DNA of 48,427 bases. Origin: a virus. The notes below the pieces were generated by a model. It had not been told where the DNA came from. It searched no databases and was given only the letters and a program-made list of their open reading frames with translations. This document shows, piece after piece, positions 1,689-41,377 of this stretch; position 1 is the stretch's first letter, and each line of letters begins with the position of its first letter. A program made the position numbers and the translations under genes. The stretch is taken from IMG/VR virus record IMGVR_UViG_3300046714_000246, positions 1-48,427 of that record. One strand, 5' to 3'.

Positions 1689-3839
1689 ATGCAACCCTAC
1701 CTACCCTCGTTTCTCGTTTCAAGGCGCCTCTTCTGCCTCTGGAATCTGCAGCCAACGGCCGGCGGACGCCCCACCAAGGCCCCTGACCAGTCGACGCTGA
1801 GGCCCGGCCGCAGCTGGGATCAGGTCAAGGACACGCCGCGCACTCACGCCACAGGACAAGGGCTGATCTTCACCGGTGGCATCGAGACGCAGTTCAGCGA
1901 TGGTTCACCGGCGCAGCTGATCGGCATCGATCTGGACAGCTGCCGCGATCCTGAGACCGGCAAGACCGCGCCTTGGGCCCTCGAGATTCTCGACAAGCTC
2001 GGGCGCCCGCTGACCGAGGTCTCGCCATCGGGTGGCGGGCTGCACATCTACGGACTCGTGCGCCCCGAGCAGCTCGAGGGCCTGAAAGCGAAAGCCGGCG
2101 TGCCGCACCCTGGCCTCGTCGCCGGCAAGCAGCCCGAGCTACAACTGTTCACCGCGCACGGCTACATGACGTTGACGCTCGACTGGCTAGCCGATTGTTC
2201 GCAGCAGATCACCGCGCTCGATCTGAGCTGGCTGATCGAGGAGTTCGATCTGCGCGGCGTCTACGACAAGAAAGAGGCGAAGCTGCCCGAGGGCGAAGGC
2301 GAGCCGCCTTCGATGGAAGAGATCAAGGCCGCGATCGTGCACCACAAGCACGGCCCCGAGCTGCTGATCGCTGACTGGGAAGCGGTGATGCCGAACAAGT
2401 CGGCGAGCGAAGCGTTCCACATGCTCGAGCACCTCGTGCTCGAGGCTGCGCGCGGGCACGGCGACGCGGCCGTCGAGTTCCTGCTGAACGAGACTGCGTG
2501 GGGCAGAGGCGAAGTCGACAACAGCAGGGACCCCGGCAAATACATGCGTGAGGACTGGGTCGAGCGTGACGTGGCACGCGCGGCCGGCAAGAACGGGCAC
2601 GCCAGTGCGGTCAGCTTGTTCCCGATCGGCTCTCCCGTTGGTCTGCCAGGGCACCCAGCACCAGAACCAGCACTGCCGGCGAAGCCACTCGTCGATAGCT
2701 CGGTCGACGCGGTGCTCAGCGAGTGGGAGAACGAGGGTGAGCTGGTGCACTTGCCCACGGGCATACCATCACTCGATGCGCTCACCGGTGGGGGTTTCGT
2801 GCTCGGCTCGCGCGTCTACACGGTCGGTGCCCCTGACGCCGGCAAGACAGGCCTGAACCTGCAGATCATCGACCACTACGTGGGGCAAGGCATCTGCTGC
2901 GGCATCCTCGGTGTTGACGAAGAGCGAGGTGACCTGTTGATGCGATTCGCGCAGCGGCGTGACATCACGCGTGTCGACTGCGAGCTGCGCACCAAGGCGA
3001 CACTGCAGCGTGTTCGCAAAGCGCTCGAGCAGTTGCCGCTGTTGCTGTTCGATCCAGAGACCTCGATCGAAGAGGCTGCGCACCGCCTGCACGAGTTCGC
3101 GAAGAAACGCTGCCCGGCGCCTTCAGGGTGGGACCCTCGCATACCGTGGCGTCCGCCGTGCGTGCTGATGGTTGACACCGTGCAGACAGCGCGCAGTGGT
3201 GGTGAGAATCCAGACGAGTCCCTCTATCGCATCGTGACCCACCGCGTGCGTGCGATTCGCACCGGGTCGACGCGCTACCGGATGCTGATGCTGATCACGA
3301 GCGAGATGTCGCGCGCAGCCTACAAGCACAAACGCGTCGAGGATCAGGTCGCGGATCTCGCGAGCGCGAAGGAGAGTGGCGCCATCGAGTTCTCGGCTCG
3401 TGTGCTGCTCGCGTTGCGCAGCGTGCCTGGGACGCACGACAAGGTCGAGCTGCGCGTGGCGAAGAACAAGCACGGGCCCTCGCACCGCGGTGACCAGGAC
3501 GGCATCTTTCTGCAGCTGGACCGTGACAAGCAGACCTTCGTCGAGGATGCTGCCTTCAAGCCGCTCGATCTCGAGGACGTGAAGAGCGGTGAGGCCTTGG
3601 ACATGGAACGGATCTCAGACATCACCTCCCTTTGCCGCGTGCTGCTGATGCAGGGCGCGATGGGGGTCCGTGAAGCGATGGAAGCGACGGGGATCAATGC
3701 GCGTCGTTTGGCCAAGGCGCGCACGTGGCTGGTGGGGGTGGGAGCGTTGATCGAGATGCCTGCCCCGAGGAGCGGATTCACGCTCACGTTGCGCCTCGAA
3801 AAGCTGCCGCAAGAGATCAAGGACAGGGTGATGCTGTGA
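1689..3839 (+). CDS. Primase-helicase fusion (prim-pol-like domain plus RecA-like ATPase)
   Basis: A 716-residue replication protein with two recognisable parts. The N-terminal part resembles bifunctional primase-polymerase (prim-pol) domains: IGIDLDSC with D81 and D83, and SPSGGGLHIYG with H119, the usual acidic pair and S-G-G-x-H motif. The C-terminal part is a RecA/DnaB-like ATPase: LPTGIPSLDALTGGG leads to Walker A GAPDAGKT (380-387), and Walker B is VLMVDT (D496). The last ~70 residues resemble a winged-helix segment. The architecture parallels T7 gp4 in joining primer synthesis and unwinding, but the primase half is prim-pol-like, not TOPRIM. The ATG at 1689 has AGGAGG 11 nt upstream. 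Its stop codon touches the first copy of the repeat array, which places the origin candidate right behind the initiator-type gene. Confidence 0.88.
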   Translation: MQPYLPSFLVSRRLFCLWNLQPTAGGRPTKAPDQSTLRPGRSWDQVKDTPRTHATGQGLIFTGGIETQFSDGSPAQLIGIDLDSCRDPETGKTAPWALEILDKLGRPLTEVSPSGGGLHIYGLVRPEQLEGLKAKAGVPHPGLVAGKQPELQLFTAHGYMTLTLDWLADCSQQITALDLSWLIEEFDLRGVYDKKEAKLPEGEGEPPSMEEIKAAIVHHKHGPELLIADWEAVMPNKSASEAFHMLEHLVLEAARGHGDAAVEFLLNETAWGRGEVDNSRDPGKYMREDWVERDVARAAGKNGHASAVSLFPIGSPVGLPGHPAPEPALPAKPLVDSSVDAVLSEWENEGELVHLPTGIPSLDALTGGGFVLGSRVYTVGAPDAGKTGLNLQIIDHYVGQGICCGILGVDEERGDLLMRFAQRRDITRVDCELRTKATLQRVRKALEQLPLLLFDPETSIEEAAHRLHEFAKKRCPAPSGWDPRIPWRPPCVLMVDTVQTARSGGENPDESLYRIVTHRVRAIRTGSTRYRMLMLITSEMSRAAYKHKRVEDQVADLASAKESGAIEFSARVLLALRSVPGTHDKVELRVAKNKHGPSHRGDQDGIFLQLDRDKQTFVEDAAFKPLDLEDVKSGEALDMERISDITSLCRVLLMQGAMGVREAMEATGINARRLAKARTWLVGVGALIEMPAPRSGFTLTLRLEKLPQEIKDRVML

Positions 3840-4091
3840 CTGTTGCACGACTGTTGTCAACAGTGCCACAACAGTGCACAACAGTGACTGTTGTGGTGTC
3901 CACTGTTGTGACGAGGATCACAACAGTCGTAATGCGGTCGAGCGTGCAAAACAGGCGTTGTAGATACTAGACTTATGACTGTTCCGACTGTTGTGGGACT
4001 GTTGACAACAGTCGGGACATGACTGTTGTGTTGCTACTATAGTAGCAACACTCAGTCAGCAACACTCAACACTCGAATGAGTCACAACAGT
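3839..4091. repeat. Array of 13 ACTGTTG/CAACAGT sites: candidate replication origin or regulator-binding region
   Basis: The gene-free gap between the primase-helicase and the resolvase-like gene holds seven ACTGTTG copies on the plus strand (3839, 3850, 3887, 3902, 3987, 3998, 4022) and six CAACAGT copies (3858, 3869, 3879, 3921, 4006, 4085). A degenerate ACTGTTC lies at 3978. Two pairs form perfect 15-nt dyads, ACTGTTGTCAACAGT (3850-3864) and ACTGTTGACAACAGT (3998-4012). The extended consensus is about SACTGTTGTG. No credible coding frame crosses it. Iteron-like density beside a primase-helicase fits a replication origin; binding by a phage regulator is the main alternative. Confidence 0.75.
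4028..4051. repeat. Perfect 24-nt palindrome inside the array
   Basis: GTGTTGCTACTA is followed directly by its reverse complement, giving a perfect dyad without a loop, centred on 4039/4040. Its centre contains TATAGT. It is AT-richer than its surroundings and could be a dimer operator, a cruciform or the melting site of an origin. A TTGACA lies at 4002-4007 but the spacing (30 nt) is too long for a normal promoter with TATAGT. Confidence 0.55.
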
Positions 4092-4102: not shown

Positions 4103-4888
4103 ATGAAAAGAAAGAACTCCAGAACCAAGGGCGCGGTGGGGGAGCGAGAGTTGAGCGAACTGTTTCGGCGCTTCGGTTACACGACTGCGCGCCGCGGACA
4201 GCAGCGCAGCGGTGTAGATCAGGCCGACGTGATCGGTGGCCCCGAGGGCTGGCACTTCGAGTGTAAGCGAACCGAGAAGCTGAAACTGCGCGAGGCATTC
4301 GAGCAGGCTGAACGCGACGCGCCGGACGACGAGGAGCCGGTGGTGGCGTGGCGAAGCAATCGCCTGTCGTGGCTCGCGGTGATTCGGCTCGAGACCTTCC
4401 TCGACTTCCTGCGTAGCCACGACGATCTGCTCGCGGCCAGCGTGAAGCACAACGTCGCTGCGCTCGAGGCACAGTCGCAGGCCGCGGCCAAAAGCTACAA
4501 AGCGCGCAAGCCGCGCAAGCCGCCGAGCGTGACCGAGCCGGTGATTGATGTCGAGGAGGAGCGAACCGACCTGCGTGAGGACTTCGGGCTGCGTGAGCTG
4601 CGTGAGACACTCGCGCACGACCCTGCGGCAGTGATGGCTGCGAACCCGCCGGCAGCGCTGGCGCAAGCACCGGGGCCCGCAGACTCGGTGCACGGGCGCG
4701 TGCTCTCGCGCACGATGCTCGATGCACCTGGGCCCACGGTGATGGTGTCGCCTGATGATCTGCCGGATGTCGACTCGATACCGCGCGTGGTCGAGGGAGC
4801 TGAAGGCGTGCAAGCGTTGCGCGCGAAGTTCGCGAAGGAGAAGGCGGACGCTGACAAGTTCCTCGCGGAGGTGTTGCGTGGAACCTAG
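4103..4888 (+). CDS. PD-(D/E)XK nuclease, Holliday-junction-resolvase-like (Hjc type)
   Basis: A 261-residue protein whose first ~90 residues match the Hjc/VRR-type nuclease core: KGAVGERE with E14, then a basic stretch (TTARRGQQRSG), D42 in QADVIGG, and the E-x-K pair in FECKR (E53, K55). These are the metal-binding residues of the family, which resolves branched DNA intermediates in recombination or packaging. The rest (about 110-261) is a long Ala/Glu/Pro-rich extension with no recognised fold, unusually long compared with stand-alone resolvases. The ATG follows GAAGGCGACC, a weak Shine-Dalgarno. It sits directly after the repeat array, so its leader includes the last CAACAGT copy. It heads a chain of overlapping small genes. 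Confidence 0.75.
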   Translation: MKRKNSRTKGAVGERELSELFRRFGYTTARRGQQRSGVDQADVIGGPEGWHFECKRTEKLKLREAFEQAERDAPDDEEPVVAWRSNRLSWLAVIRLETFLDFLRSHDDLLAASVKHNVAALEAQSQAAAKSYKARKPRKPPSVTEPVIDVEEERTDLREDFGLRELRETLAHDPAAVMAANPPAALAQAPGPADSVHGRVLSRTMLDAPGPTVMVSPDDLPDVDSIPRVVEGAEGVQALRAKFAKEKADADKFLAEVLRGT

Positions 4889-8749: not shown

Positions 8750-9015
8750 ACGAACCTCCCGAGACCGTGACCGATCAAGTCGAACGTGAGCGCAACGCCC
8801 GCAAGGGCGGTATGAAGATTTGGGTGCCGGGCATGAAGCTGCCCGAGCGCGTGAAGGAGCTGGCCGCGGTGTTCTTCGTCGAGGCCTGGAAGTCGACGCT
8901 TGCGCGCGGTCTCGACGTGATCACGTTCCGCGACAACGCGGAGAAGAACTACCAGGACTGCGTCGCGATGGCGCGCGTGCTGGTCGAGATCGACAACACC
9001 GAGGTGCCACGATGA
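8746..9015 (+). CDS. Hypothetical protein
   Basis: An 89-residue protein starting in an ATGA overlap and ending in an ATGA overlap with the next gene. It begins MNEPPETVTDQVERERNARKG and contains IWVPGMKLPERVKELAAVFF, a mixed charged-hydrophobic helical domain. No motif is recognised. Coupling on both sides argues it is real and co-produced with the neighbouring large protein. Confidence 0.6.
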   Translation: MNEPPETVTDQVERERNARKGGMKIWVPGMKLPERVKELAAVFFVEAWKSTLARGLDVITFRDNAEKNYQDCVAMARVLVEIDNTEVPR

Positions 9016-10892
9016 GTGTCATCCTCGCCAACCGGTCTGAGTTCCCGTTCGCCGGTTTCGTGCGTGTCAACTGCGACCCCGTGCCGCCACACCAACGCGG
9101 CATCGTGAAGCACGACAGACAGGAGATCACCTACTTCGTCGGCCGGCAGACGGGCCGCAAGTCGCGCGGCGTCGACTTCAAGGTCGCGTTGCTGCCGGGG
9201 CAGGAGATCAAGCTCGATCTGTCCACTTCGGTGGAGACGACCCGCAAACCGCCGCGTCCGCCCGAGCACGTCAAGACGTGGTTCAGCGGCTCGCCAACGA
9301 TCAACGGGGCGCCATTCGCGGACCCGGTGATGACGACGGACGGGGCCGGCATCCGGTTGCTCTACCTCGCGCGCGTCGGCACGACCTTCCTGCTGAAGCT
9401 GTGGGTGCACTGGATCCCCGGTCAGTCCTGGTGCAGCGGTGAACTGTTGATCGTTTCATCGAGCAGCTTCTCGACGCTGATGACAGAGCCGCTACCTGCG
9501 CTGTTGCTCGCCTGGGGTGACGCGCAGGTGCTCGTCCCTGGTCTTGTCGCGCCCGGTCCGATCGTGGGCACGTATGTCAGCATCGGCGACGACATCGTTG
9601 CCGACGGCGCGGGTCGCCCGATGCCAGTGACGTTCGCGTGGCCGCAAGATCAGGCGGCTGACGGCGTGATCGACGAGGCGACGATCAACGCGGTGGCGAA
9701 CCTCGGTGTCACTGGCATCGGTGTTGACGAGCTGTGGCCAGGGCTCGGCAATCCCTACACGTCGCACGACATCGAGCCACAGAAGTGGCGCGATGCGCGC
9801 CTCGGTGAGTCGGTGCGTCGTCTCTTCACCTGGGAGCCTGCGTTACTCGGGCCGAACCGCAACAGTCGCGACAGCGGGGCGCAGGAGGATCAAGTCTTCA
9901 AGGGCGGCGAATGCTTCCTTGGCAGTGGCGTCGGCGCGGAGACGATCACCTATCTCGCTGACCTGAAGCGGTGGGCGCGGCCGTGTCACTTCTACGAGCA
10001 GAACGGGCGCGTCGTCGATGTCGACGATCACCCGAACCTCGCATACTGGGACAGTCGGCCTTACCTCTACGTGCCCGACTGGCTCGGCAAGGAACGTGGC
10101 CTCAGCTTGGAGGAGTCGCACGGTTGGCATGGTGCTGATGACGAGCACTTCCTGTTGAACCGCCAAGCCGCGGGCGCGCGGCTGATTGACAGCGACGTGT
10201 TGCAGGAAGAGCTGCGCCACCAAGCGATGATCTACCTCGGCATGTTCCGCGTCGACCCGGAGCGGCTGCCGTATCTCTCGATCCCGTTCGCCGCGCGCAC
10301 GACGTGCTGGGAAGGTCTGCTCGTCTACCACTGCTTCCACAACCTCGCCGATCGCGCGCTCGCAGATCGTGTTCTCGTTCGCGCCAAGGACAGGGTCAAC
10401 GAGGTCATCGTGCCGGCCTACCAGTCGATCCCCGGCGCCGTGTGGGACTGGAGGAGAGACGATCGCATCGGCCCCGGAATGCGCTGGATGCCGTGGCAAC
10501 AGGCTGCCGGATCGTTCGGTTTGGATCTCATGAGTCAGCTGGTCGACAGCCCTGATGGTCGCAAGGTCGCGTTCAAGGCCGCGCAGGCCGTGATGCGCGA
10601 CGCCGCGGTGAAGATCGGCGGCCAGTGGACCTTCCGCGACGTGATCGCAGCTGACGGCGCCGAGGTGCCGACCGGGGCCTACGATTGGTTCGGTTGTCCG
10701 CTCGCAGTCGCCACCGTGCTGCGCAACGACCGCCGCGATGAGAAGGCGCGCTCGGTGTGGGCGCAATACATGCAGCAGGCGACGAACGCGCAGGACTTTG
10801 CGTGGCTCTGCCCTGGCATGGGTGATGTGCTACAGTTGCCGCCGCGTAAGATCAGCACGAACGTCTGTCGTCTGCTCAAGGCCACCAAGTGA
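9012..10892 (+). CDS. Large unknown protein, probable virion attachment/depolymerase component
   Basis: A 626-residue protein starting MSVILANRSEFPFAGFVRVN in an ATGA overlap. The first ~200 residues are beta-rich (receptor or barrel-like: FPFAGFVRVNCDPVPPHQRG, VALLPGQEIKLDLS). The remaining ~400 residues are rich in aromatic residues and regularly spaced helices (YLADLKRWARPCHFYEQ, EELRHQAMIYLGMFRVD, PYLSIPFAARTTCWEGLL), the style of an alpha/alpha-toroid as in six-hairpin glycosidases and lyases. There is no signal peptide or membrane segment. Position beside the spike-base and fibre-like genes suggests a surface protein, possibly polysaccharide-degrading. I cannot name catalytic residues, so the enzymatic idea is low confidence. 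Confidence 0.6.
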   Translation: MSVILANRSEFPFAGFVRVNCDPVPPHQRGIVKHDRQEITYFVGRQTGRKSRGVDFKVALLPGQEIKLDLSTSVETTRKPPRPPEHVKTWFSGSPTINGAPFADPVMTTDGAGIRLLYLARVGTTFLLKLWVHWIPGQSWCSGELLIVSSSSFSTLMTEPLPALLLAWGDAQVLVPGLVAPGPIVGTYVSIGDDIVADGAGRPMPVTFAWPQDQAADGVIDEATINAVANLGVTGIGVDELWPGLGNPYTSHDIEPQKWRDARLGESVRRLFTWEPALLGPNRNSRDSGAQEDQVFKGGECFLGSGVGAETITYLADLKRWARPCHFYEQNGRVVDVDDHPNLAYWDSRPYLYVPDWLGKERGLSLEESHGWHGADDEHFLLNRQAAGARLIDSDVLQEELRHQAMIYLGMFRVDPERLPYLSIPFAARTTCWEGLLVYHCFHNLADRALADRVLVRAKDRVNEVIVPAYQSIPGAVWDWRRDDRIGPGMRWMPWQQAAGSFGLDLMSQLVDSPDGRKVAFKAAQAVMRDAAVKIGGQWTFRDVIAADGAEVPTGAYDWFGCPLAVATVLRNDRRDEKARSVWAQYMQQATNAQDFAWLCPGMGDVLQLPPRKISTNVCRLLKATK

Positions 10893-10897
10893 ACACT

Positions 10898-10974
10898 GTG
10901 GTTGTAGCTCAGCCCGGTAGAGCGTCGGAATGTGGCTCCGAAGGTCGCGAGTTCAACTCTCGTCAACCACCCCA
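10898..10974 (+). tRNA. tRNA-His (GTG anticodon)
   Basis: A full cloverleaf folds: acceptor GTGGTTG (10898-10904) with CAACCAC (10964-10970), D-arm GCTC...GAGC, anticodon stem TCGGA/TCCGA with loop ATGTGGC giving anticodon GTG at 10932-10934, variable loop, T-stem GCGAG/CTCGT with loop TTCAACT, discriminator C73 (10971) and encoded CCA (10972-10974). The base before the acceptor is T, so the G-1 typical of tRNA-His is not encoded although C73 is. It starts 5 nt after the stop of the large unknown gene and is probably processed from that transcript. Confidence 0.92.
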
Positions 10975-26153: not shown

Positions 26154-28660
26154 AAACTCCGACCACGTTCACGATCGGCCGCCGGCCGGCGAGCCGACCC
26201 GGCTACGAAGCGACGAGCGTCGTTCCGCAGGAGAACGCCGTGCCGGCCACGGTGGCACGGGCCGGCAGAGCGATCGAAGAGGCTGGCAGCGAAGCGCAGC
26301 GCACCGAAGAGATCCTGACAGGGCGCGTCGATCTGGCTCGAGCCCAGGAAGCCGACGCCAAGATTGCGGACGGCTACCGCACGCTGATGTTCTCGCCCGA
26401 GGGCTACACCAACCGGATTGGCCGCGAGGCCGTCGACAAGCGGCAGGAGATCATCACCGCGCTCGACGACCACCGGCGCCAAATCCTCGACCCGCTGACC
26501 CCGAGGCAACGCAAGCTGATCGCAGCCTCTGACGAGACGCGTTACCAGCACGTGCGCAGTCAGGTCGACGGGCACTACATGCAGCAAATCTCGGCCTACG
26601 AGATGGCCGAGACCGAGGCGCGAGCCAACTCGCTGATGCTCGACGCGAGCAACGGCTACTTCGCGGCCACCGCGCCGGTGATGCCGCAAGAGCAAGGGCA
26701 GCAGTCGCAGCAGTCGTCGGTGGACGCCAGCTACGCGGAGGGCGTCGCGCGCGGTGAGATCACGCCCCAGGGGCCGGACAAGGGCCCGCCTTCCGCGTTC
26801 ACCGACAACCGGAAAGCGATGCAGTCCGAGTTGCAGCGGCTCGCAGCGCAGAAAGGTCTCGGGCCTGACGCAGTCAAAGCACTGCTGCAGCACGCTGACA
26901 ACAACCTCTATGGGTCGATCATCACTCGTTTGGTGGGCTCGAATCGCGCGCTCGAAGCGGCTGATCTGTTGCGCGAGAGCCCGGATGTCACGCTGTCGCA
27001 AGAGACACGCGCACGCCTGCAACGCGATGTTCAGGAAGCTGGTGTCGCTGAACAGGGCTTCCACATCGCGCGCGTGCTAGGACAGTCGGGTCGTGACCTC
27101 GGCGAGCAGCTCGACGCTCTTGCGCAGCTGCACGAGAAGGGCAGCATCAGTCTGCTGGCGCACGACGCGGCCGAGAAGCGCATCCTCGCCAACGACAAAG
27201 TGCAGCACGAGGCCCTCGGCCGGGCCGGTGAGAAAGCTCTCACCGACGCGCAGACGTGGCAGTCGCTGAACCCGACGGTTGCCTTGCCGGAGAGTGAGCG
27301 CAGCAAGCTGCGCGCCACCGGCAAGGAAGCGGCCTTCGATCTGTGGACACTGCAGGGCAAGCAGTTCGTGACGACGGATCAGGCTCGTCTCGAAGAGCAG
27401 ACGATGGACGACAAGATGCTCGCGAATCGCTTCGAGAGCCACGTGGAGCTGGCGCAGTCGTTCGCGCATCGCATGAGCCCCGAGGACTTCGGCAAGCTGA
27501 CACTGCGATGGCGCAAGGCACGCGGTGAAGCACTCGATCCGAAAGACGCGTTGGCTCTAGAGCACGATGTCGCCGAGAAGAACTTCCTGCAGGCATCGTT
27601 GTTCTACGACAACTTCAAGTCGACGCCGGGGAGCGGTGGCATGGCGCGCGACTCGATCAGCTCGCGCGAGAGCCGCTTTCACGAAGCAGTAGTGCTGCGT
27701 GTCAATCAGTTGGCCGCGGAAGGCAAGACGCTGAAGAACAACCTCTACAAGCTCGCGATCGAGGATGTCTGGAAGAACGGCGCGGTGGTCGACGACAAGT
27801 GGCTGCCCACCGTGATGATGACGAAGGAAGAGGTTGAGCGGGCGAAGAGTGAGGTCACGGCCGCGACTCGCAAGGCCTACAGTCTGGAGTTCCAGATGTC
27901 GGGCCAGCAGATGCCATCGCAGGCCTACCTTGTCACCGGGGAACGAGTCAATCTGGCGTCGACCAAGGAGGACGACCGGGTGTTCACGTTCGACGAGTTG
28001 TCCGACAAGATGAAAGCGGATCGGCATGGAGTCGACCCCACCTACCCCGAGGTCTCCGCAGAGTTCGCGCGTCTCGAACGTGATCGTCTGCAGCGCACGA
28101 AGGACGCGAAGGAGATCGCTTCGGTGCTCAACAAGACTCGAGCGGCGACACTGATGCAGCAGCTGCCCGCCGAGTTCGACCGCGAGTTCAACCGTCAATA
28201 CGGGCAGATGCTCGCCACTCGTGCCGCAGAAATGAAGACAGTGCGCGGGGGCTACCAAGCAGATCGCGGTGTCTACGGACGGATACCGTCAACAGGCGAG
28301 ATCGAGCGCGAGCGCGTAGAGACGAGCAAGACGCCGTCACGAGACCGCGGCTTTGCCTCACCGGCCCGCCCCGGTGAGCTGACGCAGATTCAGTCCGTCT
28401 ACCAAGACGCAGTTCGAACCGTGCTCAGTCAACACCGCAAAGAGATCACCGGCTACGGCCTGCGCGATGCTGACATCGTTCAGGGCGTCATCCCTGACAC
28501 GCGGTTGCCGGGTAACGCTCCGGTCCGATTCGGTCTCACCCCAGGCGGTGCAAACCCACTCGGCACGAAGCCGGATCTCAGCTTCACGCAAGCTGAGCAG
28601 GAGTTCCTGACTGACATGCGGAAGCGCTACAAGAAGACCGAGTTCGTGGAGTCGAAGTGA
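26150..28660 (+). CDS. Internal virion/ejection protein (T7 gp15-like position)
   Basis: An 836-residue, almost entirely helical protein rich in Gln, Glu, Arg and Ala. It begins MKTPTTFTIGRRPASRPGYE. Recurrent TPR- or helical-repeat-like stretches include QSELQRLAAQKGLGPDAVKA, LVGSNRALEAADLLRESPDV and LGEQLDALAQLHEKGSISLL. There is no signal peptide, membrane span or enzyme motif. Position between a short and a giant ejection protein is that of T7 gp15, which builds the periplasmic tube for DNA entry. It overlaps both neighbours by 4 nt. Confidence 0.7.
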   Translation: MKTPTTFTIGRRPASRPGYEATSVVPQENAVPATVARAGRAIEEAGSEAQRTEEILTGRVDLARAQEADAKIADGYRTLMFSPEGYTNRIGREAVDKRQEIITALDDHRRQILDPLTPRQRKLIAASDETRYQHVRSQVDGHYMQQISAYEMAETEARANSLMLDASNGYFAATAPVMPQEQGQQSQQSSVDASYAEGVARGEITPQGPDKGPPSAFTDNRKAMQSELQRLAAQKGLGPDAVKALLQHADNNLYGSIITRLVGSNRALEAADLLRESPDVTLSQETRARLQRDVQEAGVAEQGFHIARVLGQSGRDLGEQLDALAQLHEKGSISLLAHDAAEKRILANDKVQHEALGRAGEKALTDAQTWQSLNPTVALPESERSKLRATGKEAAFDLWTLQGKQFVTTDQARLEEQTMDDKMLANRFESHVELAQSFAHRMSPEDFGKLTLRWRKARGEALDPKDALALEHDVAEKNFLQASLFYDNFKSTPGSGGMARDSISSRESRFHEAVVLRVNQLAAEGKTLKNNLYKLAIEDVWKNGAVVDDKWLPTVMMTKEEVERAKSEVTAATRKAYSLEFQMSGQQMPSQAYLVTGERVNLASTKEDDRVFTFDELSDKMKADRHGVDPTYPEVSAEFARLERDRLQRTKDAKEIASVLNKTRAATLMQQLPAEFDREFNRQYGQMLATRAAEMKTVRGGYQADRGVYGRIPSTGEIERERVETSKTPSRDRGFASPARPGELTQIQSVYQDAVRTVLSQHRKEITGYGLRDADIVQGVIPDTRLPGNAPVRFGLTPGGANPLGTKPDLSFTQAEQEFLTDMRKRYKKTEFVESK

Positions 28661-31600
28661 TGCCCGACTACGAAGAGCCGCTGCCGCAGGATCAGATGAT
28701 GGAGCCCGAGCTGCAGGAGCCGAAGCCGGCGCCTGAGCCGGCGCCCTATCAGGAACCCGAGCCACCGGAGAAACGCGCCGGACGACTCGATGGGATCATC
28801 GCGCTCCACCGGCAGCAGGACGCGGCAACGCTGCGAGACGTGTTTCGCGCTGTCGCCGACGTGGACCCGGCGCAAGCGGCCAACCTGGACGCTGCCGCGA
28901 AAGCACTCGGTGTCGATCCACGCACGTTGCCCGCGGATCCTGACGTAGTGAAGCGTTTGCTGCGCGAGCAGCGGCTGAAGGAGCTGAACTTCGAGCAGTT
29001 CACGCCTGCGCTCACTGCGCACCTGAAGGAGATCCCGAACGCTCGCCTGTGGCACGACGACCTGGGCAACCTGCAGGAAACCCAAGGACACTTCGACTGG
29101 TTCTGGAAGGGCACCGAAGCCGGGCAGGTGACGAACGAGGAAGGCTTCTTGTTCGCCAAGCGTGCGTGGGCGCGTATGCACAACACGAAGCTCACGCCAC
29201 AGGAAGAGGATCGCATCACCGAGATCCAAGACATCACCAGGATGTCGGACCTCCAGGCGACTGGCCTGCTCGACGCGTTCGCGAAAACACTCGGCCAGCT
29301 CGTCGAGCCCGCGTTGGCGTCAGTCGCCGCGGGCGCCGCGCTCGCGTATCCCACGCTGGCCGGCGGGCCGATCAGCGGTGGAGTTGCGTTCACCACTGGT
29401 GCCCTGTCTGCAGCATTCGCTTACTCCGCGGTGGTCGAGTTCGGTCACCAATACGAGGAGACTTACAACAAGTTGACTGCGGCAGGTGTGCCCGCGGATC
29501 AAGCGCACGAGGCTGCGCTGGAGACCGGCATCGGCTACGCAATCGCCGCCGGCTTCGTTGAAGTCGGAGGCACGGCTGTGCTCGGCAAGCCGTTCGTCAG
29601 CGCTACCAAGATTGCTCTCGGTCTGACGAAGCCGACGATCGCTGGCGCCTGGAAACGCCTCGCCAAGGAAACCGTGTCCGGTTTGCTTGTTGAGCCCTGG
29701 GAAGAAGGGGTGCAGCAGTTCGAGTCGGCCATCGCGGAGAACCTCGCAGCCAAGCAGACCGGGACCGACATCGGGCCAACCCTCAGTCAGGCCGTCTCTG
29801 AGGCGGGTCAAGCCGCGTGGGCTGCTGCGAAAGGCATGATCCTCATCGCGCCGCTCGGCCCGGCGTTACACTTCACCGCGGACCTGAACCGAGCGCATCA
29901 GGCTCGAGCCGCGGTGGAGCTGGCTGACCGTGTTGCCGAATCGATGTCGAAGTCCGAGGTGCTGAAGCGCAACCCGGACGCCGTGGCTGCCGCGGTGCAA
30001 GCGGCTGCCGGCCCCACCGACGCCTATTACATCGAGGGGCCGAAGCTCGCGCAGGGTCTCGTGAAGTCAGGCCAGACGCGTGAGCAGCTGGGGCGTGACC
30101 TTCCTGACGTTCTCCGTCAGCTCACGATCGCAGAGAAGACTGGCGACGATGTCATGATCCCGATGGGCGACTTCGCGGCGAAGATCGCACCGACGGATCT
30201 GTTCCCTGCGATTCGCGAGTCGATCCGCCTGAAGAACGGCTGGAGTCTCGATCGTGCTGACGAGTGGTTCGCAGAAAGGGACGCGAACGCGAAGGCAACG
30301 CAGCAGATGGTCGCCGAAGCATCGGCCAAGGTGGTGGACTGGGACAAGCAGGCTCTCGCAGTGCAGGACCGCTTTCGTGTCGAGCTGCGCAACGACCCGC
30401 GGTTGACCACCGAACAGGTCGGCTACTACTCGCTGCTCTACCGCCAGAACGTCGAGATCATGGCCGCGCGCGAGGGCAAGACGCCGGCCGAGTGGGACGC
30501 GAAGAACGGATTGAAGGTGCGACTCGGGGCGCCGACCGGTGAAACACTGCCGCAGTTCGCCGGCATGCAGTCGAAGACGGCGAACCTGTTCGACTTCAGC
30601 AAGGCACAGCAGATGCTCGCCGAAGGCAAGGACGCAGAGACCATTCGAAACAAGACTGGCTGGTTCAAGGGCGCTGACGGTGAGTGGCGATACGAGATCA
30701 GTGATCGTGACGCGAAGTGGATCGGTCCTACAGACACCGCGTCCACCGTGGCCGCGTTCGCCAAGAAGCGTGGGGTCTCGACTCGCGAAGCGATGCGCCG
30801 GTTCTCGCCGCGGGAGCTGACGACGTTGACAGTTGGCGACGTGCTCGAGCACCCGACGCTGTTCGAAGCCTACCCTTCGCTGCGCGACATGCCGGTGATG
30901 TTGTTCCGTTCGTCCAGCTCGACGATGGGGTTCACGAGCAACATCGGCATCGGTGTCAACCTGAACGCTTCGGAGTCGCCTGACGACATCCTGTTGCACG
31001 AACTGCAGCACGTCATCCAAGAGGTCGAGGGCTTCGCGCTCGGCGGCAACACTAATCAGTTCACCGCTGCGGACCTAGAGAAGATCAAGCAGGCCGACTT
31101 CGAGCGCGTCCTCACCGAGATCAAGAAGACGGACCCGGCGGCGGTCGATGACTTCGAGCGCTACATGGAAGTGCGCAAGCGATGGTCAGACCTTCAGGCG
31201 CAAGACGGAGCTTCGGAGGAAGCCACTGCCGCAGCTGCCAAGGAAGCCACGCAGTTGTTCAACGGAATGTCGCCTAACGTGCAGCGTCTGGTGCTGGCGA
31301 AGATTTCGACCCTCCGTCCGTTCGCGGCCTACGAGCGGCTGGCCGGTGAAGTCGAGGCGCGCAACACCGTGTTGCGGCGCAAACTCACCTACAAGCAACG
31401 CGAGTCGAAGAAGCAGTCGCCTTTCACGACAGCTGACACTCCGCTGGAGAAGTTGTTGATCCAGTTCGAGCGCCCGAAGCGCGAGGTCGATCCGGGCACG
31501 TTCCGTCAGACGCGCACCGAAGACGAAGAGTGGGCCGACTACGAGCCGCTTCGCACCAAAGAAGGCAAGATCCGCGGCGCGCCAGAGTGGGTGAAGACCG

Positions 31601-34600
31601 ACTCAGACCTGAAGTCCCTTCGCGCGCAGCTGCGCAGCCGCATCGAGGAAGGCGAGGTCGGTCGCTATTGGTATGAAGAGTCGACTCGCATGGTGTTGGA
31701 AGTCACCGGCGGCAACGTGCTCGATGCCGAGAAGCTGATCCAGCTGATCGCGATCTACTCGCCGAACAACGAGATCTGGGTCAACCTGATCATGGCGGTT
31801 CGGTCCTACTCACACTGGAAGAACGGCGGCACGCGTGAGACTCTGAAGTCGGGAATGCCGGCGCTCGACGAGAAAGCTCAAGCCTTGCTCTACGAAGGCA
31901 AGTCGTGGGGCGGCCGGAAGACGAACAACTTCTACCTCAACCTGATGCACGAGATCGTGCACACCCAGCCGCAGGCGGAAGTCGCCAAGCTGAACCTCGA
32001 TCCTGATCTGCTCGAACGGATCAATAAGGCCGTCACCGCGGACGTGTGGATGTATCGCGTGTTCGGCTACGAGAACGAGCAAGGCGGCGAGGGCAAAGGT
32101 GGCGACAAGTATTCGTTCGTCGAAGGTGAGACGAGGCGCCTGATCGCGCGCAAGAATCTCGCGGGCGCACCGGTGCGTTGGCTGCCACACCAGGGGCAGG
32201 CTGCGATGTGGACGGGCATGAAGACCCGATACGAGATGCAGAAGGTGATGGAGCAGACCAACGCGAAGAGCCTGCGTGACGGTCTAATCACCTACGAGAC
32301 CGACAAGAAGGGCAAGCGTGTTGCGGTCTACCCGACGACTCCCGATGACCAGCGGGCCCACTTCGCAAACTGGCGCCACTTCGCGCTGCAGCCCACGATC
32401 GCAGAGACGAAGGCCGCAGCCGAGACGAGCGCACGAAGCTTCGCCGACGATCTCGCCGCGATGTCGCAGACCGTCACCTGGGAAACGGTGCCGGCCCCGA
32501 CGTTCGCGCACCCGATCAACGCCGCGTCGCCTGAAGTGCGACAGCAGTTCACCGGTGAAGCGGTGCGCCTCATCCTCGGGGACGACAGCCACGACCTGAT
32601 CGCGGCCCGGCTCGGTGTGGTGCTCGGGTTCGGCACGGCGGCGCAGGGCAGCTTCGAGGGCAAGATCTCGCCGAACTGGTTGAGCCACCTGTTGGCGCCG
32701 AAGCAGATCGGGCAGGACTTCAGCGTCAAGGAAGTGCGGCTCTACACGCGCATCGTCCAATACATCTTCAAGCAGAAGGCAGTGCCGTGGATCCGCCCTG
32801 ACAATCGGGTGTTGTCAGACAGCGGCGAAAAGGCGCAACGATTCAAGGTCGTCAACAAGACCGGCAAGACCTTGCGCACGTTCGACACGCAGAAGGACGC
32901 CGAAACCTATGCTGCCCAGGCACCCGAGGAACGATCGGTGCGCGGTGGCCAGATGGCACTTGGCGTGCTGTTCCGCTTTGCCCAGGATCCCGATGCCACC
33001 GCGGTCGACACCTTCTACCAAGCGTTGAAGCAGCACGTCGGGCCCATGACCGAGTTTACTCGCATGGGCAGCAACGAGTTCCTTGTGGTAAACTTCAGGG
33101 ACGACACCACCAGGGTGCCGTTCGCTCAGACCGATGAGACCTTTCTCGCCGGTGTGACGGCTCTGGCCAAGACCAGCAGCACGTTGGGACTGGCCTCACA
33201 TGGTGCGATCTACGTAGATGGCGAATACGGACAAGAACACGACTGGGCAGCGGACCCTCAAGGGGGAACACTTCTCAGTGCCCCTGCTCTCAGCGGACGA
33301 CCCGATCTACAAGCGTGGCTACGCGATCGGCGTGACGCGTTCGAACAACTCCTCGCCGGCTACGACGCCCGAGGAATCAAAGAAGCCCAAGCCGCCATCG
33401 ACGCCCGGCAAGCCGCCGTCGAGCAGCGAGCCGCCGCCGAGCGAGAAGCCCAGCTAGCTGAGAAGCAGCGTGAGCAGGCCAAGCAGGGTCTGCTCGGGCC
33501 CGAGGCGCAGACGCAGGCGCTCGCTGAAGAAGCACAGCGAGCCGCGATCGAAGCCGGCCCCGGCCAGCGGCTCGCGCAGACGGGCGCCGAACGGCCGCGC
33601 GGTGAGTTCGAGATCAAGACCAAGACCGTCTGGCTGAACCCGAACGCCGACGCCAGCACGGTGCTGCACGAGATGAGCCACTACTGGCTCCGCATGTTGT
33701 TCGAGACAGCGTCGCAAGCCACCGCGTCGGAGCAGACGAAGGCCGATGCGCAGACGGTGCTCGACTGGTTCGGCGTCAAGGACATCGAGACCTGGAACAA
33801 GATGTCGTTCGCCGAGCAGAAGCAGCACGACGAGGCTTGGGCCTACAACGCAGAGAAGCACTTCTTCGGTGAAGGTCTCGGGCCCGGCGTGAACGAAGAC
33901 CAGCGGCGCATGTTCCGCGTCTTCGGCCGGTGGATCCGTCAGGTCTACCGCGGCGTGCTCAACGTGCTGAACGTCAACTACAAGCAAGAGCACGGTGTCG
34001 ATCTGCCGGGCCTCACACCGCAGGTGCGCGACGTGTTCAACCGCATGGTCGCGAGCGAGGACGCAATCGAGGCCGCGAAGACCGAGCGCGCGATGGCGCC
34101 CATGCTGCGCGAGAAGCCGGCCGACATGTCTGACGAAGACTGGGCCAACTACGTGCTCGAGAGCATCGACAGCTCTGCCGTCGCCACCGACGAGCTGCAG
34201 CGCGCCAGCCTGCAAGCGATGAAGTGGGGCCGTGACAACAGCGCGACGATGGCCAAGAAGGTCCAACGCTACACGCGCACGATCCGCAAGAAGGTCGAAG
34301 CCGAAGAGCGGGCCAAGGTCGAAACCGAACCGGTCTACCTTGCCGAGCAGCGGCTGCGCCACGGCGTGCTCGACGACAACGGCACCGCGCGGCCCTTCAA
34401 GTTGAACCTCACCGAGTTCCGCAACCTGAGCTGGGTCGGTGACAAGACCACCGAGGAGCTGGAGCAGAAATTCGGCACTGGCCCGAGCGGCATGCTCGCG
34501 TTGAATGGGCTGCCGCTCGACTCCGCCGCGCAGATGCTCGGCTTCCCGTCCGGTGAGACTCTCGTGAAAGCTCTGACCGCTGCGCCGCCGAAGGAAGAAG

Positions 34601-37551: not shown

Positions 37552-37625
37552 TGGCACCCCGTGCCAGAATCGAACTGGCGTTGCCGGGGTGAAATCCCGG
37601 TGGCCTACCACTAACCGAACGGGGC
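37552..37625 (-). tRNA. tRNA-Glu (TTC anticodon)
   Basis: On the minus strand a complete cloverleaf folds: acceptor GCCCCGT with ACGGGGT (first pair G-U), T8-C9, short D-stem GGT/GCC, anticodon stem CCGGG/CCCGG with loop ATTTCAC (anticodon TTC), 4-nt variable loop, T-stem GCCAG/CTGGC with loop TTCGATT, discriminator G73 and encoded CCA at 37554-37552. The layout, including the short D-stem, is typical of bacterial tRNA-Glu. Its 3' end lies 3 nt from the stop of the convergent giant virion gene. It is the last element of the leftward operon. Confidence 0.9.
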
Positions 37626-38471: not shown

Positions 38472-40511
38472 CTAGCCTTTGAAGTGTCTACCGCGATAGC
38501 CTTCTACCGCGATGGGAAGGTCGGGGGCCCAGGTCGGCACCTCGCCCATGACGCTGCAGAACTCTTCCGGTGAGCCGAGACCGGGGCGGATCTCGACAGC
38601 GATCGAGTCGTGGACGTGGAGGACAATCTGGTCGTAAGGGTCACAGCTGTCGAGCCGCAGCAGCGCGTCACGTAGCACGTCACGCGCGATTGCCTGCACG
38701 ACGTTCTCCGAGAGCTTGCCGCCGTAGGTCGACTCTGGACGCATGCCTTGCTTGTGGGGCCGCATGAAGCGCAGCTCGCGCATCGGGACTTCCTGCACGA
38801 CGATGTTGCCCTCGTCGTCCACCGTCTCGATGGCTCGGACCACGTCCTTCTGGTGTGGCCGCCAGTAGTGCAACGCGCGACCTGACGGCAGGAAGATCCG
38901 CAAGCAGTCTTTGCTGCAGAGCACGGAGATGCGATCACCGACGAGGAAGCGGACACCGGGCTGTTCCATCGATTTGGCCACCGCGTCCTGCAGCGCGTGC
39001 CAGAAGTCAACGATCAGTCTGTTCGCTCGCCGCCACGCCAGCTGGATCCGCCGAGCTTCCTTCAGCGTCAACGTGACGCCGAACTTCAGTGCCGTGTTGC
39101 GGAACTTGATCGCGCCCATGCCATACTGCAGGGCCAGCTCGCAGACCTTGCCGAGGTCGCGGTTGTCGGACCCGATCTTGGCGGCAGCGATGATGTAGGG
39201 GTCGAGCACGGCGCGCTCGGCCGCGGTGGAAGCAGCGTCGTAGCGACGGAACACCGCGAGCTTCTCTTCGTCACCGGCAACGAGGGCCATGACTCGTGCC
39301 TCGATGCCGGCGAAGTCGCCGCCGATCAGATCGAGCCCTGGTCCTGCGATCACGAGCGCTCGCAGCGAGTAACTCAGGCCTTCGAGCACCGAGTGCAGCA
39401 TCGAGGCGAGGTCCAGGTTGCCGGTGCGGATCGCGTGCAGAAACGGACCGCTGACTTGCTTGTAGCTCTTGGTCGGGCGCGTCAGGTTGTGCAGCTGCAG
39501 CTGCTCGCTGCTCCAGCGACCGGTGTGGGCCTTGCTGTAGCGAAGCTGCCACCGGGCGCGGCCGTCGGCGCAAACGACGCGCGGCACCTTGGCGGCCTTC
39601 GCGAGACTCGTGAGACGACCAGTCTCCAGACGCAGGTCGAGCACGTCGCGCACGAGTTCGGGCGTGTCGTTGCGCGCGAGGATCTCGGTGATCGCGTTGC
39701 GATCGATCGAGTCCGTGTTGCGGAAACCGTCTTTCGTCTTCCTCACCGCGGTGGGCAGCTCGATGCCCTGGTCGCGGAGCCAGTCCTTCAGTGGGGCAGG
39801 ATTGCGCACGCCGATCATGTCGAGCGTGTCGTCGAGCACGACGTGCGCGATCTCGTGCTCTCGCTTCGTTGCCATCTTCTGGATTGCGACCGCGAGCTTG
39901 GTGTCGATCATCGCGCCGCGTTCGTTGATGCGACGATCGACTTCGACCATCTGCGCTTCTTCGCGCGGCAGCGTAGGCATCTTGTCGTGGCAGTCGAGCA
40001 TCGCGTCCACGTCGTCAGCGCAGTATTTGACGAGACGCTCGAGCTGCTCTGCAGTTGGCTGCGGGTAGATCCAGACGCCTTTCTTCTGCTTCACCTTGGC
40101 CAGGGACAGCATCAGCTTGTGCCCTTCCTGGTCCTTCTGGTGCGGTGTGCCGAGCGCGACGCCGAGCTGGTAGAGACCGAGCGGCAGGTTGTGGTTGGCT
40201 GCGATCAACATCGTGTCGCGCCACCGGCCCGGCATCGGGAAGCCGAAGTGCGGCACGAGGATGTTCTTGAAGATGCTCAGCTCGAATGCTGCGTTGTGCG
40301 CCAGGACAACGAAGTTGGTCAGGCACTCGCGCGAGAACAGGGACAGCTCTTGGCCCGGCGTCCACCAGTCGCGCAGGCGTTGGCCACCGAGGTCTTCCGC
40401 GGTGATCACAACGCAGTGCACTCGCGTGGTCGGGTGTTCGGCGTAGTGCGCGGCGCCCTGCGTCTTCAGCGATGCTGCGCTGCAGGTCTCGATGTCGACG
40501 CCGACGATCAT
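38472..40511 (-). CDS. Family A DNA polymerase with 3'-5' exonuclease domain
   Basis: A 679-residue replicative polymerase. The exonuclease domain carries Exo I VDIETCS (D6, E8), Exo II AHNAAFE and Exo III KYCADDVDA. The polymerase domain carries motif A GGDFAGIEARV, motif B (O-helix) region RDLGKVCELALQYGMG and motif C LHVHDSIAVE with the catalytic H-D. There is no 5'-3' exonuclease domain, as in T7-like polymerases. I start at ATG 40511 (MIVGVDIETC), which overlaps the stop of the upstream 43-codon gene by ATGA; a longer frame upstream has non-homologous, basic composition. It works with the primase-helicase and SSB encoded by this phage. Confidence 0.93.
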   Translation of the reverse strand: MIVGVDIETCSAASLKTQGAAHYAEHPTTRVHCVVITAEDLGGQRLRDWWTPGQELSLFSRECLTNFVVLAHNAAFELSIFKNILVPHFGFPMPGRWRDTMLIAANHNLPLGLYQLGVALGTPHQKDQEGHKLMLSLAKVKQKKGVWIYPQPTAEQLERLVKYCADDVDAMLDCHDKMPTLPREEAQMVEVDRRINERGAMIDTKLAVAIQKMATKREHEIAHVVLDDTLDMIGVRNPAPLKDWLRDQGIELPTAVRKTKDGFRNTDSIDRNAITEILARNDTPELVRDVLDLRLETGRLTSLAKAAKVPRVVCADGRARWQLRYSKAHTGRWSSEQLQLHNLTRPTKSYKQVSGPFLHAIRTGNLDLASMLHSVLEGLSYSLRALVIAGPGLDLIGGDFAGIEARVMALVAGDEEKLAVFRRYDAASTAAERAVLDPYIIAAAKIGSDNRDLGKVCELALQYGMGAIKFRNTALKFGVTLTLKEARRIQLAWRRANRLIVDFWHALQDAVAKSMEQPGVRFLVGDRISVLCSKDCLRIFLPSGRALHYWRPHQKDVVRAIETVDDEGNIVVQEVPMRELRFMRPHKQGMRPESTYGGKLSENVVQAIARDVLRDALLRLDSCDPYDQIVLHVHDSIAVEIRPGLGSPEEFCSVMGEVPTWAPDLPIAVEGYRGRHFKG

Positions 40512-40639
40512 GGTCTTGCCGGCAGGCCGGCGCGCACGCGCCGCTTCGCCTGGAAGATCATGTCGCGGTAGGCACGGATCTGCTGACGTCGACTCCAGAG
40601 CCGGCGGCCCCAGCCAGGGATGTTGGGCTTTCGTTTCAT
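40508..40639 (-). CDS. 43-residue basic protein directly upstream of polA
   Basis: A 44-codon frame beginning MKRKPNIPGWGRRLWSRRQQ and ending ATGA-coupled to the polymerase. About one third of the residues are Arg or Lys, with Trp at 10 and 15. Evidence for reality is the exact overlap and the position after a hairpin, like a leader gene for polA. It could be a DNA- or RNA-contacting peptide or only a translational-coupling leader; no family is recognised. Confidence 0.5.
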   Translation of the reverse strand: MKRKPNIPGWGRRLWSRRQQIRAYRDMIFQAKRRVRAGLPARP

Positions 40640-40660
40640 GGTTGTGCTCGTGAAGGAAAC

Positions 40661-40707
40661 GGTTCCCGGCCGTCGCGATGGAGACGCGACGACCGGGTCC
40701 GGGAACC
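40661..40707. promoter_or_regulatory. Long imperfect hairpin between SSB and polA leader gene
   Basis: An outer 9-bp arm GGTTCCCGG (40661-40669) pairs with CCGGGAACC (40699-40707), and an inner 7-bp arm CGTCGCG (40671-40677) with CGCGACG (40685-40691), around a 7-nt loop. The interior loop is asymmetric (1 versus 7 nt). In the leftward transcript it lies after the SSB stop. There is no T-run, so partial termination, RNA processing or transcript protection are all possible; it could set the SSB-to-polymerase ratio. Confidence 0.5.
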
Positions 40708-40753
40708 CCAGGACTGCGCACCGGTGGGGGCGGCTGCCTGGAGTTTTCTTCGA

Positions 40754-41377
40754 CTAGAACTTGAGGCCGGCGAACAGATCGTCACCGGTGTCGCCACCCA
40801 CTTCCGGCGGCATCTCCAGCGCTTCGAACACCTCGTTCGGGTCGACGCGCTTGCCGCGGCCGTCGATGCGCGGGCCATCGGGATCGGTGTCCGCGCCATC
40901 GCGGATGATCTGCACGGCCTGCAGTGAGAAGCTGACACCCTCGTCGCGCCAACCGTAGGCATCGAGCACGACGTTCGCCCATTGGCCCGCCCACACCTTG
41001 GTCGGGTCAGTAATCGGCAGACGCAGAGCGTTCACCACCGGTGGCTGCGCTTCGTTTCTGACGTTGATGTGGAACCACCCATTGGCGTAGCCCTTGTTGC
41101 TGCTGCCGTCGCAACGACGGATCGGGTTGCAGCGTCCTTCGATGTTCTTGATCTTCCTGAAGTCCTTCACCATCGCGGCGCGCATCGCGTCAACGTATGG
41201 CTTCAGATCCGTCGTCGGCGGCAGCAGTAGCGTGACGGAGTAAACGAGCGGCTCGGTGGGCAGCGAGTCCTTGTATTTCTTGCCGCGCACGAACAGCTGC
41301 TTGGTATAGGCAAGGCGAACGTTCGTTGCGACGATGCGACACGGGTCGACCGTCTTCACTGGTTTCATGTCTGTCAT
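40754..41377 (-). CDS. ssDNA-binding protein, DUF2815 (Enc34-like SSB) family
   Basis: A 207-residue protein with the DUF2815 pattern: VRLAYTKQLFVRG early, YSVTLLLPPTTDLKPYVDAM, a central WFHINVRNEAQPPVVN and the family-typical VWAGQWANVVLDAYGW. The C-terminus is acidic and ends in Phe (GGDTGDDLFAGLKF), as in SSBs that recruit partner enzymes through an acidic tip. It should coat single-stranded DNA at the phage fork. Start ATG 41377; an in-frame ATG at 41368 is an alternative. It lies between the DUF2800 nuclease and the polymerase, a common arrangement for these families. Confidence 0.85.
   Translation of the reverse strand: MTDMKPVKTVDPCRIVATNVRLAYTKQLFVRGKKYKDSLPTEPLVYSVTLLLPPTTDLKPYVDAMRAAMVKDFRKIKNIEGRCNPIRRCDGSSNKGYANGWFHINVRNEAQPPVVNALRLPITDPTKVWAGQWANVVLDAYGWRDEGVSFSLQAVQIIRDGADTDPDGPRIDGRGKRVDPNEVFEALEMPPEVGGDTGDDLFAGLKF

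Follow-up and report, generated by a model that had tools for sequence, protein, structure and literature searches.

The repeat array directly behind the primase-helicase gene of this phage is, in all likelihood, an iteron-type replication origin that the protein encoded upstream would bind through its C-terminal domain. The array was found in the window, i.e. the whole 48,427-nucleotide stretch of DNA analysed (IMG/VR record IMGVR_UViG_3300046714_000246). The same layout recurs with other repeat words behind related genes in other phages. In one natural pair of relatives, the repeat word and the C-terminal domain of the replication protein have changed together.

A preliminary description of the window had reported 13 exact copies of ACTGTTG or CAACAGT, in both orientations, within 253 bp (3839-4091), and a direct count bore this out. 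Seven are forward (ACTGTTG at 3839, 3850, 3887, 3902, 3987, 3998 and 4022) and six are reverse (CAACAGT at 3858, 3869, 3879, 3921, 4006 and 4085). These sites are mostly 8-19 bp apart within two blocks (3839-3927 and 3987-4028), with the final site at 4085. The array does start in the primase-helicase stop codon, as had been stated: its first site begins with the final A of the TGA that ends ORF 1689-3839. The two 15-nt dyads (3850-3864 and 3998-4012) proved to be exact, but the second is simply the first on the other strand rather than a differing dyad. Four further sites carry one mismatch (ACTGTTC at 3978; CAACACT at 4046, 4060 and 4067), so that 17 sites with at most one mismatch lie within 266 bp, compared with four or fewer in any other 266-bp stretch of the window. 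The 7-mer occurs 15 times across the 48.4-kb window, where 3.8 copies would be expected and none of 100 shuffles had more than 11. The commonest 7-mer of the 360 bp surrounding the array has 13 copies, while the highest count in 100 dinucleotide shuffles was four. Counts so far above the shuffles, together with the local density of sites, rule out a chance origin of the array. The only two exact copies outside it (9443 and 9860) both lie inside a 690-aa ORF (8820-10892) that precedes the terminase and has no match in Pfam or PHROG.

Table 1. Features of the proposed origin and of the associated replication genes (positions in the window).
Feature	Position	Strand	Basis
716-aa putative PrimPol-helicase, proposed initiator	1689..3839	+	PHROG primase and DnaB-like helicase matches; KaiC/RecA-fold ATPase
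Codons of C-terminal ~90 residues, proposed iteron-binding domain	3570..3836	+	Inferred from joint change of array word and last ~80 residues in relatives
Iteron block 1, eight exact ACTGTTG/CAACAGT sites	3839..3927		Motif count
AT-rich spacer, candidate melting region	3928..3977		53% AT (3928-3978) vs genome 36%, a modest contrast
Iteron block 2, four exact sites and ACTGTTC at 3978	3978..4028		Motif count
Perfect 24-nt palindrome GTGTTGCTACTATAGTAGCAACAC, core CTATAG	4028..4051		CT(T/A)TAG-core counterparts in relatives' arrays
Right-hand reverse sites (CAACACT 4046, 4060, 4067; exact CAACAGT 4085)	4046..4091	-	Motif count
RusA-like Holliday-junction-resolvase-family ORF, downstream of array	4103..4888	+	phrog_244, E 5.5e-20
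Family-A DNA polymerase, proposed primer extender	38472..40721	-	DNA_pol_A, phrog_17
ssDNA-binding protein	40754..41377	-	Enc34_ssDNA-bd, Gp2.5-like

The N-terminus of the proposed initiator matches a PHROG primase family (E 3e-8) and, weakly, NrS-1 PrimPol structures (E about 0.01), while the Pfam Prim-Pol family was not reached. Its helicase part is a RecA/DnaB/KaiC-like ATPase and not of the SF3 type. The C-terminal stretch has no family match, and an AF2 model of the full 716-aa protein was too poor for use (pLDDT 38). An exonuclease is also encoded in the window, on the same arm as the family-A polymerase and the ssDNA-binding protein, so that a good part of the replisome is the phage's own. 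The record, a virus contig, carries a BPP-1-like head-tail adaptor gene together with terminase, major head and tail genes, and a single 2963-aa ORF occupies 28657-37548 of its structural arm. An Rfam scan of the window returned two tRNA genes, at 10898-10971 (+) and 37555-37625 (-), and nothing else.

No close relative of the 1689-3839 protein was found in the viral, genome, phage or plasmid collections searched. Viral and genome contigs queried with this protein and the resolvase gave no usable relative, and 26 records related to the window by their portal protein held no match to it. The recurrence of the architecture was therefore examined instead of the conservation of ACTGTTG. Scanning viral sequences for the dyad together with one more site gave a single hit, whose three sites lie in what is apparently repetitive coding sequence. 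Some of the portal relatives carry other two-way word arrays, with words such as AGGGTGG and ATCAGAT (L052, 5900-6500; L070, 1200-1420; also L031, L036, L038 and L054). The array in L052 sits inside an ORF upstream of the portal gene, different from the replication gene of the window, and recalls an origin within an initiator gene, as in lambda O. A candidate array of CGATAAC in L059 was discarded as a tandem repeat inside an ORF.

Two comparisons show how regularly such arrays follow replication genes. In the first, 14 phage loci were scanned on either side of the replication gene, over ~350 bp behind it and 360 bp in front of it. Arrays of differing words were identified downstream in the window, RHph_N65, EBPR siphovirus 5, MW202867 and RHph_X2_25, with a weaker one in Mae-Yong1326-1; none was found within 360 bp upstream of the replication genes at the loci scanned. 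A scan with an alignment of four array-bearing proteins yielded 80 IMG/VR loci, and an array was scored where at least five copies of one 7-mer lay within 250 bp downstream of a gene end. Arrays follow 64 of 77 primase/helicase gene ends, a sample that includes close relatives, was drawn by similarity to array-bearing proteins and is thus neither independent nor a measure of the frequency of the layout in all phages. Among the 505 remaining gene ends of these loci, a single one has an array, with three displaced arrays set aside. These three are replication-gene arrays shifted behind an inserted ORF (L154, L157 and L169), which in L157 is PAPS-reductase-like, and L173 shows the same separation of gene and array. 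In Vibrio phage 1.210.O (L190), a PAPS-reductase gene likewise stands between the helicase gene and a weak array with a hairpin.

The repeat word differs from phage group to phage group, and the ACTGTTG motif itself is therefore not the point. Isolated phages with the layout include RHph_N65, RHph_X2_25, Rhizobium phage 16-3, PB15, 1N2-2 and CRP-831. The layout is also present in the isolate MJing1, whose PrimPol region matches that of the window protein and in which six sites flank an AT-rich stretch. No such array was found on scanning ctsHD2, BPP-1, BL94, BFK20, GB2A, X2_26, MW202475 and some others, even though ctsHD2 is the isolate with the most similar ATPase.

Evidence for a link between the array and the C-terminal domain comes from the relatives L177 and L181. 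Their PrimPol and ATPase domains are 98.8% and 98.7% identical, respectively, whereas the last ~80 residues have diverged. At the DNA level, the two loci are 91% identical up to the C-terminal divergence and 89% identical again from inside the array onward. All eight sites are at matching positions, with recognisable spacers, and read CGTCACA in L177 and CGTAGCA in L181. A C-terminal domain that reads the sites would be expected to change jointly with them in this way. Because the C-terminal codons and the array are adjacent, one recombination event could have moved both. Across all pairs, with a linear control for the other domains, word and C-terminal identity showed a trend that was not significant (129 of 2000 permutations), so the claim of joint change rests mainly on the L177/L181 pair. 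In L102, the C-terminal domain was predicted with good confidence to fold as helix-strand-helices-hairpin-helix, a winged-helix-like arrangement, although the winged-helix assignment of the relative's domain is weak (best PDB E 0.078). Overall, two findings strengthen the earlier reading of the array as an iteron-type origin: the layout recurs directly behind PrimPol/RepA-family helicase genes but is very rare at other gene ends, and word and domain have changed together in one pair.

Several features inside the array are consistent with this function. The 24-nt palindrome is the sole perfect palindrome in the window with arms of 12, and it is preceded by the forward site at 4022 and followed by the four right-hand reverse sites. 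In relatives, the hairpin also often has forward sites to its left and reverse sites to its right. Of 29 distinct arrays, 10 have a palindrome with an exact CT(T/A)TAG core within or next to them, where shuffles predict 0.01, a contrast that overstates the surprise because the core was picked after viewing the arrays. Some of the hairpin stems contain GTG/CAC. GTG serves as a start signal for the NrS-1 PrimPol (PMC8718748), and GTG/CAC is marked in the pRN1 origin stem-loop (PMC4234260). The hairpin may be the priming site. A stem-loop test downstream of 1689-3839 gave a DNA fold z of -7.6, which stems largely from the inverted iterons, with the palindrome in addition.

The two iteron sets flank an AT-rich region, and the most AT-rich 100-bp stretches of the 48.4 kb scanned fall in the array region. 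This is mild support for an origin, since intergenic DNA tends to be richer in AT anyway. The preliminary description had also proposed looking for a GC-skew switch at 3.8-4.1 kb; no clear or sharp switch was seen at the array, and the result is uninformative since gene orientation also changes nearby. A search for an intrinsic terminator found none.

Taken together, these features suggest how replication might begin. The C-terminal domain of the 1689-3839 protein would bind the ACTGTTG sites as double-stranded DNA, and the bound initiator would assemble its helicase at the array. AT-rich DNA between and beside the site blocks would then open, possibly with extrusion of a hairpin from the CTATAG palindrome. 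The predicted PrimPol domain would lay down the first primers, from which the phage family-A DNA polymerase and ssDNA-binding protein would continue synthesis.

Other functions have been considered for the array. Transcription control is unlikely, though the most probable of these alternatives: the sites would be operators through which a phage regulator, either a repressor or an activator and perhaps the primase-helicase itself, controls the resolvase gene and later ones. Regulators that act as dimers often bind dyads, there is a weak sigma-70-like match at 4014-4043 whose -10 hexamer falls within the palindrome, and iterons can act as both origin and regulatory sites, as in iteron plasmids. 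However, the sites lie directly 3' of the replication gene, not upstream or at other gene ends, and the word and the replication protein's C-terminal domain change together. The suggestion of a master control region, made in the preliminary description, gained no support. It is very improbable that the array is a partition or copy-control site (parS- or crr-like) recognised by a DNA-binding protein other than the initiator, of the type found in some extrachromosomal prophages. Direct repeats adjoining repA do act as parS in some mycobacteriophages (PMC7157519), but no ParA/ParB match was found among the families scanned with part of the window ORFs, and the link to the C-terminal domain points to the replication protein rather than a separate one. 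Equally improbable is a packaging or recombination site, or a set of functionless repeats: a resolvase gene does come after the array, but the terminase genes are some 7 kb away, and recurrence at the same place with changing words argues against both packaging and neutral repeats.

If the array is an origin, the layout may have wider meaning. One possibility, put forward tentatively, is that these phages belong to a widespread class of tailed-phage replicon not described so far: a single protein would serve as initiator, helicase and primase, and the origin, made up of iterons and a CT(T/A)TAG-core hairpin at which PrimPol would start, would lie directly behind its gene. In this class, the C-terminal domain and all iterons would turn over together, and new specificities would keep arising. 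To our knowledge, the origins of most environmental phages are unknown, and the layout suggests a rule for finding them: a repeated word and a CTTTAG- or CTATAG-core hairpin directly behind a PrimPol/RepA-family helicase gene. It may also be a natural record of an initiator and its whole site set changing specificity together. The isolates 16-3, RHph_X2_25 and RHph_N65 carry the same layout, which makes these proposals testable at the bench.

Parts of the layout are known from other replicons. The NrS-1 PrimPol, which the N-terminus of the window protein weakly matches, starts de novo at the template words TTTGGTTA or GTG (PMC8718748). However, the NrS-1 genome holds two octamer copies, and no iteron array is described there (PMC7102993). 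RSF1010, with its iterons and ssi hairpins, likewise combines a helicase (RepA), a primase (RepB') and an iteron binder (RepC) (PMC4234260), and a related Rep helicase weakly matches RSF1010-type RepA (1g8y, E 0.007). These are three separate proteins in RSF1010, whereas the window has one fused protein, and the iterons and layout differ.

The PrimPol plasmid pRN1 depends on a stem-loop that follows its gene. Its ORF904 combines PrimPol and helicase in a single protein, as BIP-1 does and as the window protein probably does, and the stem-loop lies just 3' of the gene, being required in pRN1 and proposed in BIP-1 (PMC4234260). BPP-1 and BIP-1 are also portal relatives of the window phage. In contrast to the window, pRN1 and BIP-1 have a helicase of the SF3 type and a single large stem-loop but no iteron array, and BPP-1 showed none in the scan.

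The proposed origin would work in the manner of SaPI/PICI and SCCmec origins, with a hairpin reminiscent of pRN1. The C-terminal domains of SaPI Rep and SCCmec Cch2 bind iterons that lie immediately behind the genes of these proteins (PMC7581432), as is proposed for the window protein. The SCCmec system (AAGTG repeats) differs in its three iterons, its separate primase and polymerase proteins and its helicase family, and it is not a phage. In SaPIs and PICIs, as in the window, the origin lies directly 3' of the primase/initiator gene (PMC6092414, PMC7581432), and a PICI pri-rep-ori segment replicates plasmids (PMC6092414). These elements are satellites with other helicase families, whereas the window joins a putative PrimPol and a RecA-fold helicase in one protein and has a CTATAG palindrome; its terminase, head-tail adaptor, major head and tail genes mark it as a tailed phage rather than a PICI. 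In 2018, the authors of the PICI study stated that this origin layout was present in no other known bacterial replicon (PMC6092414). The phages described here appear to be further cases of it, although an earlier description may exist beyond the open-access literature.
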